From NCBI RefSeq assembly GCF_004011695.2, contig NC_082416.1, positions 1,178,001 to 1,242,000 on the forward strand: a DNA stretch of 64,000 nucleotides. The letters run 5' to 3'. The position numbers and the translations under genes are program-made. The stretch's first letter is position 1. Every line of letters begins with the position of its first letter. The stretch is from Ascochyta rabiei (taxonomy: Eukaryota > Ascomycota > Dothideomycetes > Pleosporales > Didymellaceae). Positions 31,401-58,015 of the stretch are shown in pieces. Under the pieces are notes generated by a model. It did not search any database and had not been told where the DNA came from. It saw nothing but the letters and a program-made list of their open reading frames with translations.

Positions 31401-33832
31401 CATTGTAGGCGGCTGTCTTAAGAATATTAAGGTCTAACTTCTCTTTATAGTCTTGTATCCTTAGGGGGGCACCTTAAACTTTAAGCGTAATTCTTTCTTC
31501 CCCTAGTATTAGTTCTCTGTTAGCTACTTATAATAGGTACAGTTCTTCTTTATACTATAGTTAAAGTCTAGCTTCTTCTACTACTATACAGGATATGTAA
31601 TTTCCCTAGGCTCCTAAGTCTAATAATGCTGATAGCTCTACTCTATTTAGTATAATAGTAAGCTTAATTAGGCAATTAGTCCTAATAGAGTTAATAGATT
31701 AATCCCTAGCGCTCTCTAGCGCTGTCCTAAAAAAGACTTGTTCTTAAATCTGTTATGTTCCTTGTGTCCCTAGTAAACCTCGTAATTAGGATTTAGGCAG
31801 TTCTGCTAGTGCGCGTTATAGCACTATCTATTAACTACTAGCTATATCTAAATAATTACTTATAGGTTGTCTGTTCTAGGAAAGTAGGCATAGCTGTACT
31901 TGTTAATAAGGTGCTTCTTGTATAAGTTGTTTTAGCAGTTGTACTACTAAATATAATAAGATTAGTGTCCTAGAGGAAACTATCTATAGTTTAGCTTAGA
32001 TTCTTAGTGTACACTATATTAGTTATTACTATAGGCTGTCCATAATAAGTCTCTATATTGCAGATTTCTAACATCTAGTTTATACTAGGGTTGTAGGCTT
32101 AGTAGTAGTAGAAGTAACATTAGTAAGGGTTGTTGTTCCCTTATGCTTTGTAAGCTGCGCTATATCTCCTTTTTATACTAGTGTTAGTCTTTAGTAGCTT
32201 CTAGTAGGTTTAATACTTGTTAGCAGTTATTAGTCTCTTATTTAACCTGCCAGATAAGCTAGTTAAATTCTAAAGTAAGTTCTTCTTCCTTAGATCCTAC
32301 TATAGGTTAAATAAGTTCTTAGCATATATAGGCGTACGCTTCTTCCTTAGTATAGCGCTTATGCTATTAGCGTTAGTATTAGCAATGTGTAGTGTCTTAT
32401 CTAATTTCTATAAGTGTTTGTCTAGAGGTATCTAGAAGGTTGTCTATCTTGCGTTAGTAGTCCTTTGTCTCTTTGTAGGGTTTGCTAATGTTGTTAAGCA
32501 TAGCTTGCTCCTTAACAACCTCTTCTAGTTTGCGCTTAATAACCAGAAGTTCCTTGCCTTTAAGACTAAAGTAGCTTATTCCCTATTATTAGAACAGGCC
32601 TTTGTGTTTTTTACTAACCTTAAGGCTTGTTCCTTCTATACAGTATTCTACTGCATAATACTATTAGTTACTATTAGTAAATAGTACTCCTTTGCCCTCT
32701 GTAGTGTTATAGTAAGAGGTTACTATATAAATTAGAGGTTTAATATTTTTATTATTATCCTTAGGACTAGACTCTAGGTCTTCTATAAGTTGTCCTATAT
32801 TATTAGTAACTACTTCCTAGTTACTAGCATCTACAGTATTAACTTTGCAGGTAAGAACATTAAGCTGTTAGAGAACCTTGTTCTTTATCTTACAGTCTCT
32901 TGTAAACTAGCCTAGTTTGCTACAGTTATAGCAGTCCTTGCTACTGTCCTTATTAGAGTAATATCCTCCTCTACCCTTCGCGTTCTACTGTCCTAATAGC
33001 AGTCCTTTGTTAAGGTTTAAGAGATCTATAGCCTCTAGTCTAAAGTATCTACTCTGCGTGTTACTGTAGATGCGTTAGCTAGTGTTAGGCTAATAACATC
33101 CTCCCTATTGTCCTTAGTTTAGGTTGTTGCGCTATTAGTTCCTTAGTAGGCAATTGCTAGTAATAGTAACAACGCGCGTTCTAGGGTTATTATAAAGCTC
33201 TTACTAAAGTTTATATAGCTGTACATTAATGTTAATAGAGGTATTAATAAGGTTATTAAGGTTATTAGTACTTGCGCTGGTGCGCATAAGTTCCTCCTTA
33301 ACCTTAGGCTTTAGTCCTTGTCTAAACATAGTTATTAGAGTAGTGTTATCCTAGTTAGTGTTAGTAGCAAGTTACTAGAACTCTGCGGTGTAGTCAGCAG
33401 CTAACTTGTCCTGCTTAATCTTCTAAATATTGTGTTAAGTAATAGTAGGTTTGTTAGAGACTCTAAAGATTAGCTTAATCTTTTCTTTAAAGTTGTTAAA
33501 GTTGTTTATCTATTTATCTACTTCTACTAGTAAGTTGCTAGCTTAGAACTGTTGTATAAAAGGTTTAATCTATTAGAAAGCTTTACTATGCATATAGCTA
33601 GTAATAAGAACTACTTATTTGTCTATAGGAACCTTCTTACTCTAGAAGGTAAAGAAGAGGTCCTACTGTATAAGCTAGTTATTAAGTTTATTACGCTCTC
33701 TATAGTATTAATCTAGTTTATTAACGTTTATAATGCTTAAGGTGTAGACAGCTCCTTCTATGTCTACATCTATGCTAGAGCTGCTAGGGGTAGCGCAAGA
33801 TCCTGTAGTACTTATCTTAGGGGTGTTTAAAA
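28420..33832 (-). pseudogene. gypsy-1 gag-pol, RIP-inactivated
   Basis: On the minus strand a gag zinc knuckle lies at about 32893-32934 (CYNCSKLG..FTRDC, with a stop at the His position). Reverse transcriptase is recognised around 30550-30590 as VVYLNNILVYSKTLEEH, where the catalytic Asp pair reads Asn-Asn. Integrase and the C-terminal region are to the left. Numerous TAG/TAA make it inactive. Confidence 0.8.
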
Positions 33833-42014: not shown

Positions 42015-43267
42015 TTTTAAATACCCCTAAGATATGTACTATTAGATCCTATACTACCCCTAGTAACTCTATATCTAGTAACATTAATATAGATATAACT
42101 GTTACTACTAGCACTATAAACGTTAATAAGCCTAACCTTTACTACAGATATTATAGTAAGCTTAATAACTAGCTTATATAGTAGGACCTCTTCTTTACCT
42201 TCTAAGATAAAAAGGTTCCTAAGGGTAAATAGGTAGTCCTTGCAGCTAGCTATATGCGTAGTAAAGTGTTTACTTAGACTAAGCCCTTTATACAGCAGTA
42301 CTAAGCTAGTAAGGCCCTAGACAATATAGCTAAATAGATAAAAGACTTTAACCTATTTAAAGAAAAGATTAAGCTAATCTTTAGAGTCTCTAATAAACTA
42401 TATATTGCTTAACGCAACATTTAGAAGATTAGATAGGATAAGTTAGCTGCTAACTACGCTATAGAGTTTTAGCAGCTTACTACTAACACTAACTAGGACA
42501 ACACTGCCCTAATTACTATATTTTAATAAGAATTAAAGCCTAAGGTTAAGAAAGAACTTATACGCACCAGCGCAAGCACAGAAACCCTTAATAAGCTTAT
42601 TAATACTGCTATTAACATTAACGTATAACTCTATAAACTTTAGTAAGAACTTTAAGATAACCCTAGAGCACGTACTACTATTATTGCTACTAATAGGCTG
42701 CTACTAAGGAACTAGTAGCGCAATAACTTAAATTAAGGACAGTAAGAAGGCTGTAATTAGCTAAATACTAGTTGCTGTATCTACAGCAACACTTAGAGTA
42801 GATACTACAGACCTAAAGCAATAGACCTCTTAAACCTTAACAAGGGACTACTAAAGCAATAGAATAAGAAGCCTAAGGTAGGTAACTAACACAGAGGCAG
42901 CAGGGACTGCTACAACTGTGGTAAACCAGGCCACTTTGCTAGAGACTGCTAGAGGAATAAGGTTTACTGCTAGTTAAATATACTTACCTATAATTATAAT
43001 AATACAGATGCTAGTAAATAGGAAATTCTTACTAATAACATAGGACAACTGCTAGAAGACCTAGAGTCTAGTCTAGAGGACGATAATAACTGTATTGTAC
43101 CTCTAATTTGTGTGGTAACACCCTACTAGGACACCTAGACAGTATGGTGGCAAAAGGGTAGGGGTAGGGTAGGGTCCACATGGGGTAGGGGTAGGGGTAG
43201 GGTAGGGTCCACATGGGGTACGGGTAGGGGTTGGGTAGGGGTTGGGTAGGGGTTGGGTAGGGTAGGT

Positions 43268-43582
43268 GTCAGCGTCCAACTCTTTAACTAAAGCAGTTAT
43301 TGCAAAACTTTGTACTACAAAAATATAGAGCAAAACGAGCGCTTTCAAACGGTCTATATACCGTGAGATTCCGATCAGACCTGGTAGAGTTACAGCAGTT
43401 GTTGTGTAAATCCTAGGTCGTTACTACGTAGGCCTACGTAACAACTGCTCTAGCTCTACTAGTTTTGAACGGAATCTCACGGTATATGGACCGTTTGAAA
43501 GCGCTTGTTTTGCTCTATACTTTTGTAGTACAAAGTTTTGCAATAACTGCTTTAGTTAAAGAGTTGGACGCTGACACCTACC
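43268..43582. repeat. Hairpin unit 1 of the fold-back element
   Basis: Arms of about 135-140 bases (TGTCAGCGTCCAACTCTTTA ... and its inverse) around a centre TACGTAGGCCTACGTA. Arms differ at only a few bases. Confidence 0.8.
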
Positions 43583-43621
43583 CTACCCAACCCCTACCCA
43601 ACCCCTACCCAACCCCTACCT

Positions 43622-43925
43622 GTAACTCTTACAGTAAAGCAGATATTAAGAGATTTTGTACTAGAAAGATATAGAACAAGGAGAGCGCTTTCAAACAGTC
43701 TATATTTTGTGAGATTCCGATCAAAACTGGTAGAGCTAGAGCAGTTGTTAAGTAGGCCTACGTAGTAACAACCTAGGATTTACACAACAACTGCTGTAAC
43801 TCTACCAGTTCTGATCAGAATCTCACGGTATATAAACCGTTTAAAAGCGCTTGTTTTACCCTATAATTTTATAGTATAAAGTTTTATAATAACTGCTTTA
43901 GTTAAAGAGTTCCACGCTAACACCT
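43622..43925. repeat. Hairpin unit 2, diverged copy of unit 1
   Basis: Same order of blocks and the same TAGGCCTACGTA centre as unit 1, but with more C/T and G/A changes, particularly in the left arm. Confidence 0.75.
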
Positions 43926-44266
43926 ACGGGCCCTACTTAGGCCTACCTCTTCCCTACAGACCCTACCCCAAACCCTACCCTACCCTACCTCTACCCCTGG
44001 TCCGTGTAGACTGTACCCTACCCCTACCCCACGCTAGAGGTACCCCTACCCTACCTCTACCTAACGTCCGTGCGGACCCTACCCTACCCCTACCCCATGT
44101 GGACCCTACCCCTACCCTACCCCTACCACTGGTCCGTGCAGACCGTACCTAACCCCTACCCAACCCCAGGGTACCCCCTACCCTTTTGCCAGCGTACTAG
44201 ACAGGCAAAGAAACAGAGTACTACTCTAACAACAACTAGCAAACGATAGACAACCTACTAGACACC

Positions 44267-48825: not shown

Positions 48826-51476
48826 TTAACTGTTGTTTCTTTATATTGTAGTTAACTGCTCTATCTTAGCGCGTCTTATATGTTAAAGAGATATTATTAA
48901 TCTCCTTCTTATCTACTAACTGCGGCGTGTGTTATGTAGGTATTAGTGCAGCTATACAGTGCTTACATCTATTAAATAAGATTTAGCACTTTTTCTAGTT
49001 AATTTGTAGATTATGCTCTTATAACTATAGTAGTCCTAATGTAACATTATAGGCAGCTGTCCTAAGAATATTAAGGTCTAACTTCTCTTTATAGTCTTAT
49101 ATCCTTAGGGGGGCACCTTAAACTTTAAGTGTAATTCTTTCTTCCCCTAGTATTAGTTCTCTGTTAGCTACTTGTAATAGGTATGGTTCTTCTTTATACT
49201 ATAGTTAAAGTCTAGCTTCTTCTACTACTATGCAGGATATGTAATTTCCCTAGGCTCCTAAGTCTAATAATGCTAATAGCTCTACTCTATTTAGTATAAT
49301 AGTGAGCTTAATAAGGCAATCAGTCCTAATAGAGTTAATGGATTAATCCCTAGCGCTCTCTAGCGCTGTCCTAAAAAAGACTTATTCTTAAATCTGTTAT
49401 GTTCCTTATATCCCTAGTAAACCTTACAATTAGGATTTAGGCAGTTCTGCTAGTGTGCGTTGTAGCACTGTCTATTAACTACTAGCTGTATCTAAATAAT
49501 TATTTATAGGTTGTCTGTTCTAGGAAAGTAGGTATAGCTGTATTTGTTAATAAGGTGCTTCTTATATAAGTTGTTCTAGCAGTTATACTACTAAACATAA
49601 CAAGAATAGTGTCCTAGAGGAAACTATCTATAGTTTAGTTTATATTCTTAGTGTACACTGTATTAGTTATTACTGCAGGCTGTCTATAATAAGTCTCTAT
49701 ATTAGAGATTTCTAACATCTAGTTTATACTAGGGTTATAGGCTTAGTAGTAGCAGAAGTAATATTAGTAAGGGTTATTATTCCCTTATACGTTATAAGCT
49801 TCGTTACATCTCCTTTTTATACTAATATTAGTCTTTAGCTTCTTCTAGATTATTTAATGCTTATTAGCAGTTATTAGTCTCTTGTTTAACCTGCTAGATA
49901 AGCTAGTTAAATTCTAGAGTAAGTTCTTCTTCCTTAGATCCTACTACAGGTTAAATAAGTTCTTAACATATTTAGGCGTACGCTTCTTCCTCTGCTTAGC
50001 GTTTAGGCTGCTAGCAATAGTGTTAGCAATGCGTAGTGTCTTGTCTAATTTCTCTAAGTGTTTATCTAGAAGTGTCTAGAAGGTTGTCTATCTTATATTA
50101 GTAGTCTTTAGTCTCTTTATAGGGTTTACTAATGTTATTAAGCATAGCTTGCTTTTTAGTAACTTCCTCTAGTCTACGTTTAATAACCAGAAGTTCCTTG
50201 CCTTTAAGACTAAAGTAGCTTATTCCCTGTTAACAGAACAGGCCTTTGTATTTCTTACTAACCTTAAGGCTTATTCCTTCTACACAGTATTCTACTGCGT
50301 AATACTGTTAGTTGCTGTTAGTAAATAGTACTCCTTTGCCCTCTGTAGTGTTATAGTAAGAGGTTACTATATAAATTAGAGGTTTAATATTTTTATTATT
50401 ATCCTTAGGACTAGACTCTAGGTCTTCTATAAGTTGTCCTATATTATTAGTAACTACTTCCTAGTTACTAGCATCTACAGTATTAACTTTGCAGGTAAGA
50501 ACATTAAGCTGTTAGAGAACCTTGTTCTTTATCTTACAGTCTCTTGTAAACTAGCCTAGTTTGCTACAGTTATAGCAGTCCTTGCTACTGTCCTTATTAG
50601 AGTAATATCCTCCTCTACCCTTCGCGTTCTACTGTCCTAATAGCAGTCCTTTGTTAAGGTTTAAGAGATCTATAGCCTCTAGTCTAAAGTATCTACTCTG
50701 CGTGTTACTGTAGATGCGTTAGCTAGTGTTAGGCTAATAACATCCTCCCTATTGTCCTTAGTTTAGGTTGTTGCGCTATTAGTTCCTTAGTAGGCAATTG
50801 CTAGTAATAGTAACAACGCGCGTTCTAGGGTTATTATAAAGCTCTTACTAAAGTTTATATAGCTGTACATTAATGTTAATAGAGGTATTAATAAGGTTAT
50901 TAAGGTTATTAGTACTTGCGCTGGTGCGCATAAGTTCCTCCTTAACCTTAGGCTTTAGTCCTTGTCTAAACATAGTTATTAGAGTAGTGTTATCCTAGTT
51001 AGTGTTAGTAGCAAGTTACTAGAACTCTGCGGTGTAGTCAGCAGCTAACTTGTCCTGCTTAATCTTCTAAATATTGTGTTAAGTAATAGTAGGTTTGTTA
51101 GAGACTCTAAAGATTAGCTTAATCTTTTCTTTAAAGTTGTTAAAGTTGTTTATCTATTTATCTACTTCTACTAGTAAGTTGCTAGCTTAGAACTGTTGTA
51201 TAAAAGGTTTAATCTATTAGAAAGCTTTACTATGCATATAGCTAGTAATAAGAACTACTTATTTGTCTATAGGAACCTTCTTACTCTAGAAGGTAAAGAA
51301 GAGGTCCTACTGTATAAGCTAGTTATTAAGTTTATTACGCTCTCTATAGTATTAATCTAGTTTATTAACGTTTATAATGCTTAAGGTGTAGACAGCTCCT
51401 TCTATGTCTACATCTATGCTAGAGCTGCTAGGGGTAGCGCAAGATCCTGTAGTACTTATCTTAGGGGTGTTTAAAA

Positions 51477-57738: not shown

Positions 57739-57787
57739 AAATAGTAACCTAACTAGGGGGCACAGTATAGCAGGTAACATTAAAATT

Positions 57788-58015
57788 CTGCTACTCTAAA
57801 GGCTAGGGTATAGTTTAGGAATTATCCTGTTAACTCTAGACTAGGACGTTATTATCTGAATATCTGCCACTCTGAAGGCTGGGGCACAGCCTAGGAATTA
57901 TCCTGTTAACTCTGAACTAGGACGTTATTATCTGAATATCTGCTACTCTGAAGGCTAGGGCACGGCCTAGGAATTATCCTGTTAATTCTGGACCAGGACG
58001 TTACGATTAGACCTA
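57788..58015. repeat. Three tandem 76-base repeats in the retrotransposon leader
   Basis: CTGCYACTCTRAAGGCT recurs at 57788, 57864 and 57940, each followed by AGGAATTATCCTGTTAA. Lies between LTR and gag, so it may affect packaging or transcription. Confidence 0.9.

Follow-up and report, generated by a model that had tools for sequence, protein, structure and literature searches.

The G-rich unit that sits in a decayed gag gene of Ascochyta rabiei is very probably a non-autonomous hAT transposon carrying an amplified, invertible palindrome, with ends that match those of a 6.6-kb hAT element and a palindrome that is probably foreign to it. Its membership of the hAT superfamily rests on the length of its target-site duplication, on the ends that it shares with the larger element and on the PF05699 domain of that partner. 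The unit belongs to the double-hairpin type and lies on the forward strand of the window, by which we mean the whole 64,000-nucleotide stretch of DNA that was analysed (Table 1). The initial annotation knew of no named element with this design, but a hAT element in this very genome has the same ends and G arrays. What seemed a G-rich fold-back structure outside all classes can in this way be placed in a hAT-derived family, and the series of one, two and three hairpins, together with both loop orientations, makes palindrome doubling and inversion traceable copy by copy.

Structure of the element

Table 1. Parts of the probable hAT element and its target-site duplication (window coordinates)
Feature	Position	Strand	Basis or remark
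Whole non-autonomous hAT element (double-hairpin type)	43143..44196	+	1054 bp; genome copies, ends and duplication
Target-site duplication, left copy CTAGACAG	43135..43142	.	single copy in 7/7 empty gag relatives
Target-site duplication, right copy CTAGACAG	44197..44204	.	perfect 8-bp match to left copy
Left terminal inverted repeat TATGGTGGCAAAAGGGTA (family form TACGG/TACAG-TGGCAAAAGGGTA)	43143..43160	+	tip pattern
Right terminal inverted repeat TACCCTTTTGCCAGCGTA	44179..44196	-	tip pattern
Left subterminal GGGTA/GGGGTA/GGGGTT array, built of 33-bp and 11-bp units	43156..43265	+	also present in the 6.6-kb hAT element, at its left end
Hairpin 1 with mirrored G array, loop orientation A	43219..43624	.	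arms 190 nt, 94% complementary
CCCTACCCAAC array between hairpins (x3.6), mirroring a section of the left array	43581..43620	-	repeat search
Hairpin 2, loop orientation B	43621..43914	.	arms 134 nt, 76% complementary
Right subterminal TACCC array and end	43956..44196	-	92% identity over 241-243 columns to the L048 right end

The inverted G-rich arrays at both ends and the two palindromes around TACGTAGGCCTACGTA that the initial annotation had described are present, although the unit, placed there at 43145..44194, proves to be two bases wider on each side. Hairpin 1 has its arms at 43219-43408 and 43435-43624, with the G array as part of them, and hairpin 2 at 43621-43754 and 43781-43914; the view that the second unit is the more mutated agrees with the lower complementarity of the hairpin 2 arms. 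The two palindromes are not head-to-tail, as had been supposed, but mainly inverted to each other, forming a 304-nt inverted pair at 87% with the loops in orientation A and then B. The left arm of hairpin 2 carries CTTACAGT, a marker of what looks like a double lineage (see below). Compared with several other copies the left array of the window element is about 90-120 bp shorter, a shortfall whose register is ambiguous because the array is built of 33-bp units. An Rfam search of the window gave no match.

Copies in the genome and their target-site duplications

When searched against its own genome (40.9 Mb, 23 contigs) the element gave at least 204 matches, and as only 40 of the 178 candidates were scored, copy counts here are lower bounds. 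With at most one mismatch allowed, the 18-base tip pattern matched the genome 222 times, against a single match for the reversed control. We assembled 54 loci from 39 element matches, six tip pairs picked by eye, eight places found with the hairpin arm and the window itself. Both ends were present in 45 of these, and 39 of the 45 have a duplication that agrees at six or more of eight positions. In the first set of 40 loci (the 39 matches and the window, besides the larger elements L048 and L049) both ends were found in 36, the exceptions being L021, L033, L035 and L045, and a duplication of at least 6/8 in 30 of the 36; in the second set of 14 loci an end is missing in five, and all nine with both ends have a duplication of at least 7/8. 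No good duplication was found at six of the 45 both-ended loci (L012, L018, L022, L025, L040 and L043), among which L018 and L022 look composite. Exclusion of these six and of the nine loci without both ends from later counts left 40 elements at 39 loci, with a perfect 8-bp duplication in 35 of the 40. Left and right sites paired at random between different loci reached 6/8 or better in 34 of 1937 pairings, and the next column outside the duplication matches in 13/33 and 14/33 of the agreeing pairs, which had been selected for agreement within the eight columns. We observe a weak target-site tendency to G, T, A and C at positions 1, 3, 6 and 8 (each 0.50-0.53), which is symmetric by construction, since both strands of the 36 distinct perfect sites were counted.

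The family has also jumped into itself: a single-hairpin element (L047:2702-3551) is nested in another family element (L047:2122-4189), and inner and outer elements each have their own perfect 8-bp duplication (GTTACAGG and GAATCACC). Separately, the duplication GGTCTAGG is common to L034:2016-2788 and L057:54-737 on different contigs, by chance, through a duplicated insertion site or because of a preferred site in a repeat.

The host of the window element is a gag relic. The initial annotation had set the unit inside a gag ORF, and gag it is, as the zinc knuckle PF00098 is found when stops are read as X; the reading frame, however, is broken by stops, and no ORF of at least 150 aa occurs in the element or its gag surroundings. 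Seven relatives of this gag, one inside L029 and six from the top of the genome-search list, all have the site empty with CTAGACAG once, in a match that spans 260-263 of 400 joined bases and stops about 60 bases past the site. The suggestion of a mobile family, and the searches for genome copies and empty sites proposed with it, are thereby borne out, and with many copies bearing duplications and empty sites at hand the counter-case of a single copy with no empty site falls away. The TA target site that had been envisaged is another matter: the duplications are 8 bp long, unlike those of Tc1/mariner MITEs, and this rules out a TA-site or Tc1/mariner reading. Elsewhere in the window, two reverse-strand segments (32690-32832 and 50334-50476) resemble the gag sequence that flanks the element, with an identity of about 81%, and are probably more relics of the same retrotransposon group.

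A larger hAT element with the same ends

Pairs of tips separated by 6.6 kb located two larger elements, L048 (6590 bp) and L049 (6645 bp), which are 93% identical to each other and each bear a perfect 8-bp duplication. We found that their tips and inverted GGGTA arrays are common to the window element, whose left end matches L048 over 93 columns at 92%, with a right-end match of the same identity (Table 1). The left 220 bases of L048 contain 13 copies of GGGTAGGG and two of CCCTACCC, and the right 250 bases contain 16 copies of CCCTACCC; neither is present in the 6120-bp body. Since GGGTAGGG or its complement is confined to the two ends, the clustered GGGTA arrays, and with them the G-rich arms of the window element, look like subterminal repeats of the hAT kind.

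With stops read as X, both large elements contain the hAT dimerisation domain PF05699 above the Pfam cut-off (E 2e-6 in L048, 1e-5 in L049). No other Pfam domain was found in the frames of L048, its three reverse frames giving no match at all, or in the coding-strand frames of L049; the three coding-strand frames of L049 had no match in NCBIfam, a PDB search with the broken L048 transposase returned none, and neither element has an ORF of at least 90 aa. The hAT superfamily is further characterised by catalytic DDE residues and a conserved W; the frames here are heavily damaged. The C-terminal part of an L048 frame aligns with protein P0005 of Boeremia exigua at 51% identity (215 identical residues among 420 aligned columns), and in P0005 PF05699 is found at E 8.7e-19, with a hAT-like RNase-H match below the cut-off. 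A protein of Sporormia fimetaria, fourth of 4 matches, is also a relative (43% identity), and both species belong to the Pleosporales. Joined to the hAT part of P0005 is a DDE_1/Tc5-type transposase (residues 782-1215) that has many stop-containing matches in this genome, and P0005 is perhaps a gene model misjoined across two adjacent transposons.

At least 11 full-length bodies of the 6.6-kb element are present in the genome (31 of 87 candidates scored); PF05699 was detected in nine of the 11, with 4-6 stops inside each, and in two it was not. The hAT part of P0005 matches six listed places (36 of 1178 candidates scored), with 31-41 stops in each. None of the 11 scored bodies and six listed places holds an intact transposase of the family, which makes present mobility doubtful. 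Two of the 6.6-kb copies, C2:1909122-1915772 and C2:1920372-1927022, lie 4.6 kb apart as mirror images and have the same match score, possibly as an inverted segmental duplication, and L048:1425-2090 consists of three head-to-tail copies at a spacing of 237-238 bp.

The typical hAT tip is YARNG. The family tips, TACGG at the left and TACGC at the right, fit at positions 1-2 but not at the third base, which is C, and position 5 fits at one end only, the right tip having C. As in MITEs, which are usually below about 0.8 kb in length, there is no transposase ORF of at least 150 aa, the ends are common to a larger element and copies are many. Non-autonomous hAT elements and hAT MITEs likewise combine 8-bp duplications, the short inverted tips of a larger hAT and many copies, but the family described here differs from hAT MITEs in its one to three long internal palindromes and in doubles of more than 1 kb.

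Hairpin number, orientation and shared markers

Among the 40 elements we counted one hairpin in 20, two in 18 and three in two, the latter being the triple L029 and the nested insertion L047. The singles measure 531-935 bp and the doubles 1054-1254 bp, with two exceptions among the doubles (L041 with 1428 bp and L026 with 2461 bp). The asymmetric loop of the singles lies in one orientation in eight and in the other in 12 (binomial p 0.50); doubles comprise ten AB, five BA and three BB, so that the two hairpins are mutually inverted in 15 of 18. Arms 1 and 4 of the doubles are the closest (0.904 vs 0.808-0.831 in the other five pairings). The two arms of one hairpin in the 20 singles are no closer (0.865) than the same arm compared across copies (0.865, 190 pairs), so that nothing points to arm conversion still going on.

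An inner-arm marker (CTTACAGT or CTTATAGT) is shared by 14 of 18 doubles and absent from all 20 singles (Fisher p 3e-7, with relatedness ignored); eight doubles have it in arm 2 and six in arm 3. Moreover, a second marker, AACAC, is found on the opposite inner arm in seven of the 14 marked doubles, both markers having been chosen after the alignment was seen. In three doubles AACAC is on arm 2 and the first marker on arm 3, and in four the order is reversed, one of these four having AACAC on arm 4 as well. Both orders are what reversal of a whole dimer between its ends would predict. Combined with the sharing of the first marker, they suggest that the doubles form a single double-hairpin lineage that transposition has spread and that is present in the form of inversion isomers. 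The lack of the first marker in four of 18 doubles and in the triple L029 makes a second doubling event possible.

Proposed origin of the family

We suggest that the transposase of the 6.6-kb hAT element may mobilise the window family in trans, copies then inserting elsewhere with an 8-bp duplication, and that the G arrays are putative binding sites of this transposase. The 6.1-kb hAT body would have been replaced by the palindrome, which is not found in L048 or L049. An ancestral single hairpin probably doubled once to an inverted pair, and the double form, of which the window holds one copy, would then have spread as such; the simplest cause of the flipping of loops and whole dimers may be recombination between inverted arms.

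It is unlikely, to our mind, that the palindrome is instead a nested transposon, a small fold-back element or MITE riding as passenger in a hAT deletion derivative. Within L048 and L049 nothing matched the arm core at E<=1, the sole weak arm match near the large elements being 17 bp (E 0.75) in the L049 flank, and this absence, like the two loop orientations, speaks for a passenger. The arm search that the initial annotation had called for gave at least 94 genome matches (40 of 100 candidates scored), which by eye are nearly always inverted pairs; of the eight arm places fetched, six have one pair, L062 has a lone arm and in L065 a pair is accompanied by a third, partial arm; L018 has an odd fifth arm, so that an unpaired arm is seen at three loci. 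However, no clearly independent copy was found among the places read from these candidates, no separate duplication was recognised around the palindrome, and the hairpin takes in the mirrored GGGTA array, a feature of hAT ends.

The palindrome might even be a working part of the hAT-derived element, with hairpin number rising, loops and dimers flipping and the double form spreading through the genome because the palindromes aid its multiplication or shield it through dsRNA, though we consider this rather a long shot. Multiplication might for example be aided by template switching or gap repair at a hairpin extruded during transposition. If true, the family would be a hAT element whose payload recombines; a literature search that excluded Repbase and most subscription papers found no description of a hAT element with such a palindromic payload. 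The tip letters TGGCAAAAGGG led to no transposon title in the literature, there was no literature match for a hAT MITE of A. rabiei or for a non-autonomous fungal hAT with subterminal repeats or G-quadruplex, and among the papers listed for a fungal fold-back hAT none used the fold-back term.

G arrays and folding

The prediction of quadruplex-prone arms was confirmed at the level of motifs, of which the 1054-bp element has three on the + strand and four on the - strand, while the remaining 62,946 bases of the window contain a single one; each of 500 single-base shuffles of the element yielded at most one per strand. This enrichment is the attraction of a quadruplex or i-motif element, in which the G-rich arms would be functional, through replication stalling or insertion targeting, and the transposon ends incidental, but we judge such an element very unlikely, because the G arrays are the ends of a hAT element and cease where the hAT body starts, and because the hAT enzyme Kat1 is one for which subterminal repeats are of importance (PMC4763223). 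The motifs are real as sequence, and their confinement to transposon ends better fits subterminal repeats; quadruplex formation is chemically possible and seems unnecessary as an explanation of the element. Genome scans may take from this the caution that quadruplex-rich arms can simply be the subterminal repeats of transposons.

The region 43262-43930 has a DNA fold of -242 kcal/mol, vs -62 +/- 5 in 20 dinucleotide shuffles (z = -34). Such a strong single-strand fold, several long inverted repeats and the 7- or 8-bp duplications known for Galileo (PMC4168063) would suit a fold-back element like FB/Galileo of Drosophila, moved by its long inverted repeats; we nevertheless give this very little credence, as fold-back elements have long inverted repeats from the tips, while here the tips of about 18 bp are followed by outer arms that amount to no more than imperfect arrays (97 nt, 71%), and the long palindromes lie inside the element and were not detected in its larger relative, which has a hAT domain. 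Misassembly is common at hairpins, but an assembly artefact, or a single in-situ duplication, is scarcely conceivable for 40 elements at different places, with different sequences, their own 8-bp duplications, shared marker haplotypes and empty sites.

Relation to known systems

The hAT-derived family has partial counterparts in three systems. In Pyrenophora tritici-repentis, a fungus of the same group as the relatives named above, a hAT pair of about 5.6 and 2.3 kb likewise consists of a hAT element and a shorter non-autonomous derivative, but that derivative, unlike the elements here, keeps an in-frame chimeric gene (PMC3538342). Galileo and FB resemble the family in their variable inverted-repeat structure and in duplication length, and differ from it as members of the P superfamily with terminal inverted repeats, where we observe internal palindromes and a hAT relative (PMC4168063). 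Kat1 of Kluyveromyces lactis is a hAT transposase for which terminal as well as subterminal repeats matter, yet it has been domesticated for mating-type switching, and its hairpin-capped breaks differ from the internal palindromes found here (PMC4763223).

Decay and base composition

Differences between arms are mostly transitions (1631 of 2217), so that ages cannot be read from them. The contexts of polymorphic transitions are mixed (AR 15, YA 11, TR 9, YT 8, CR 7 and others), and a clean CpA signature of RIP was not seen in them. Over the initial 27 kb of the window the TpA/ApT ratio is 0.77, rising to 1.98 between 27 and 35 kb and standing at 1.97 between 40 and 64 kb without the element. 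The hairpin region has a ratio of 2.3 and the whole element one of 3.3, the latter raised by the GGGTA repeats, while the body of L048 has 1.89. Median GC of the flanks is 0.342 in 30 of the 40 elements, the window's and nine short-flanked ones being left out. The AT-rich part of the window also holds a tandem array of 76-bp units (2.9 copies, 57787-58003).
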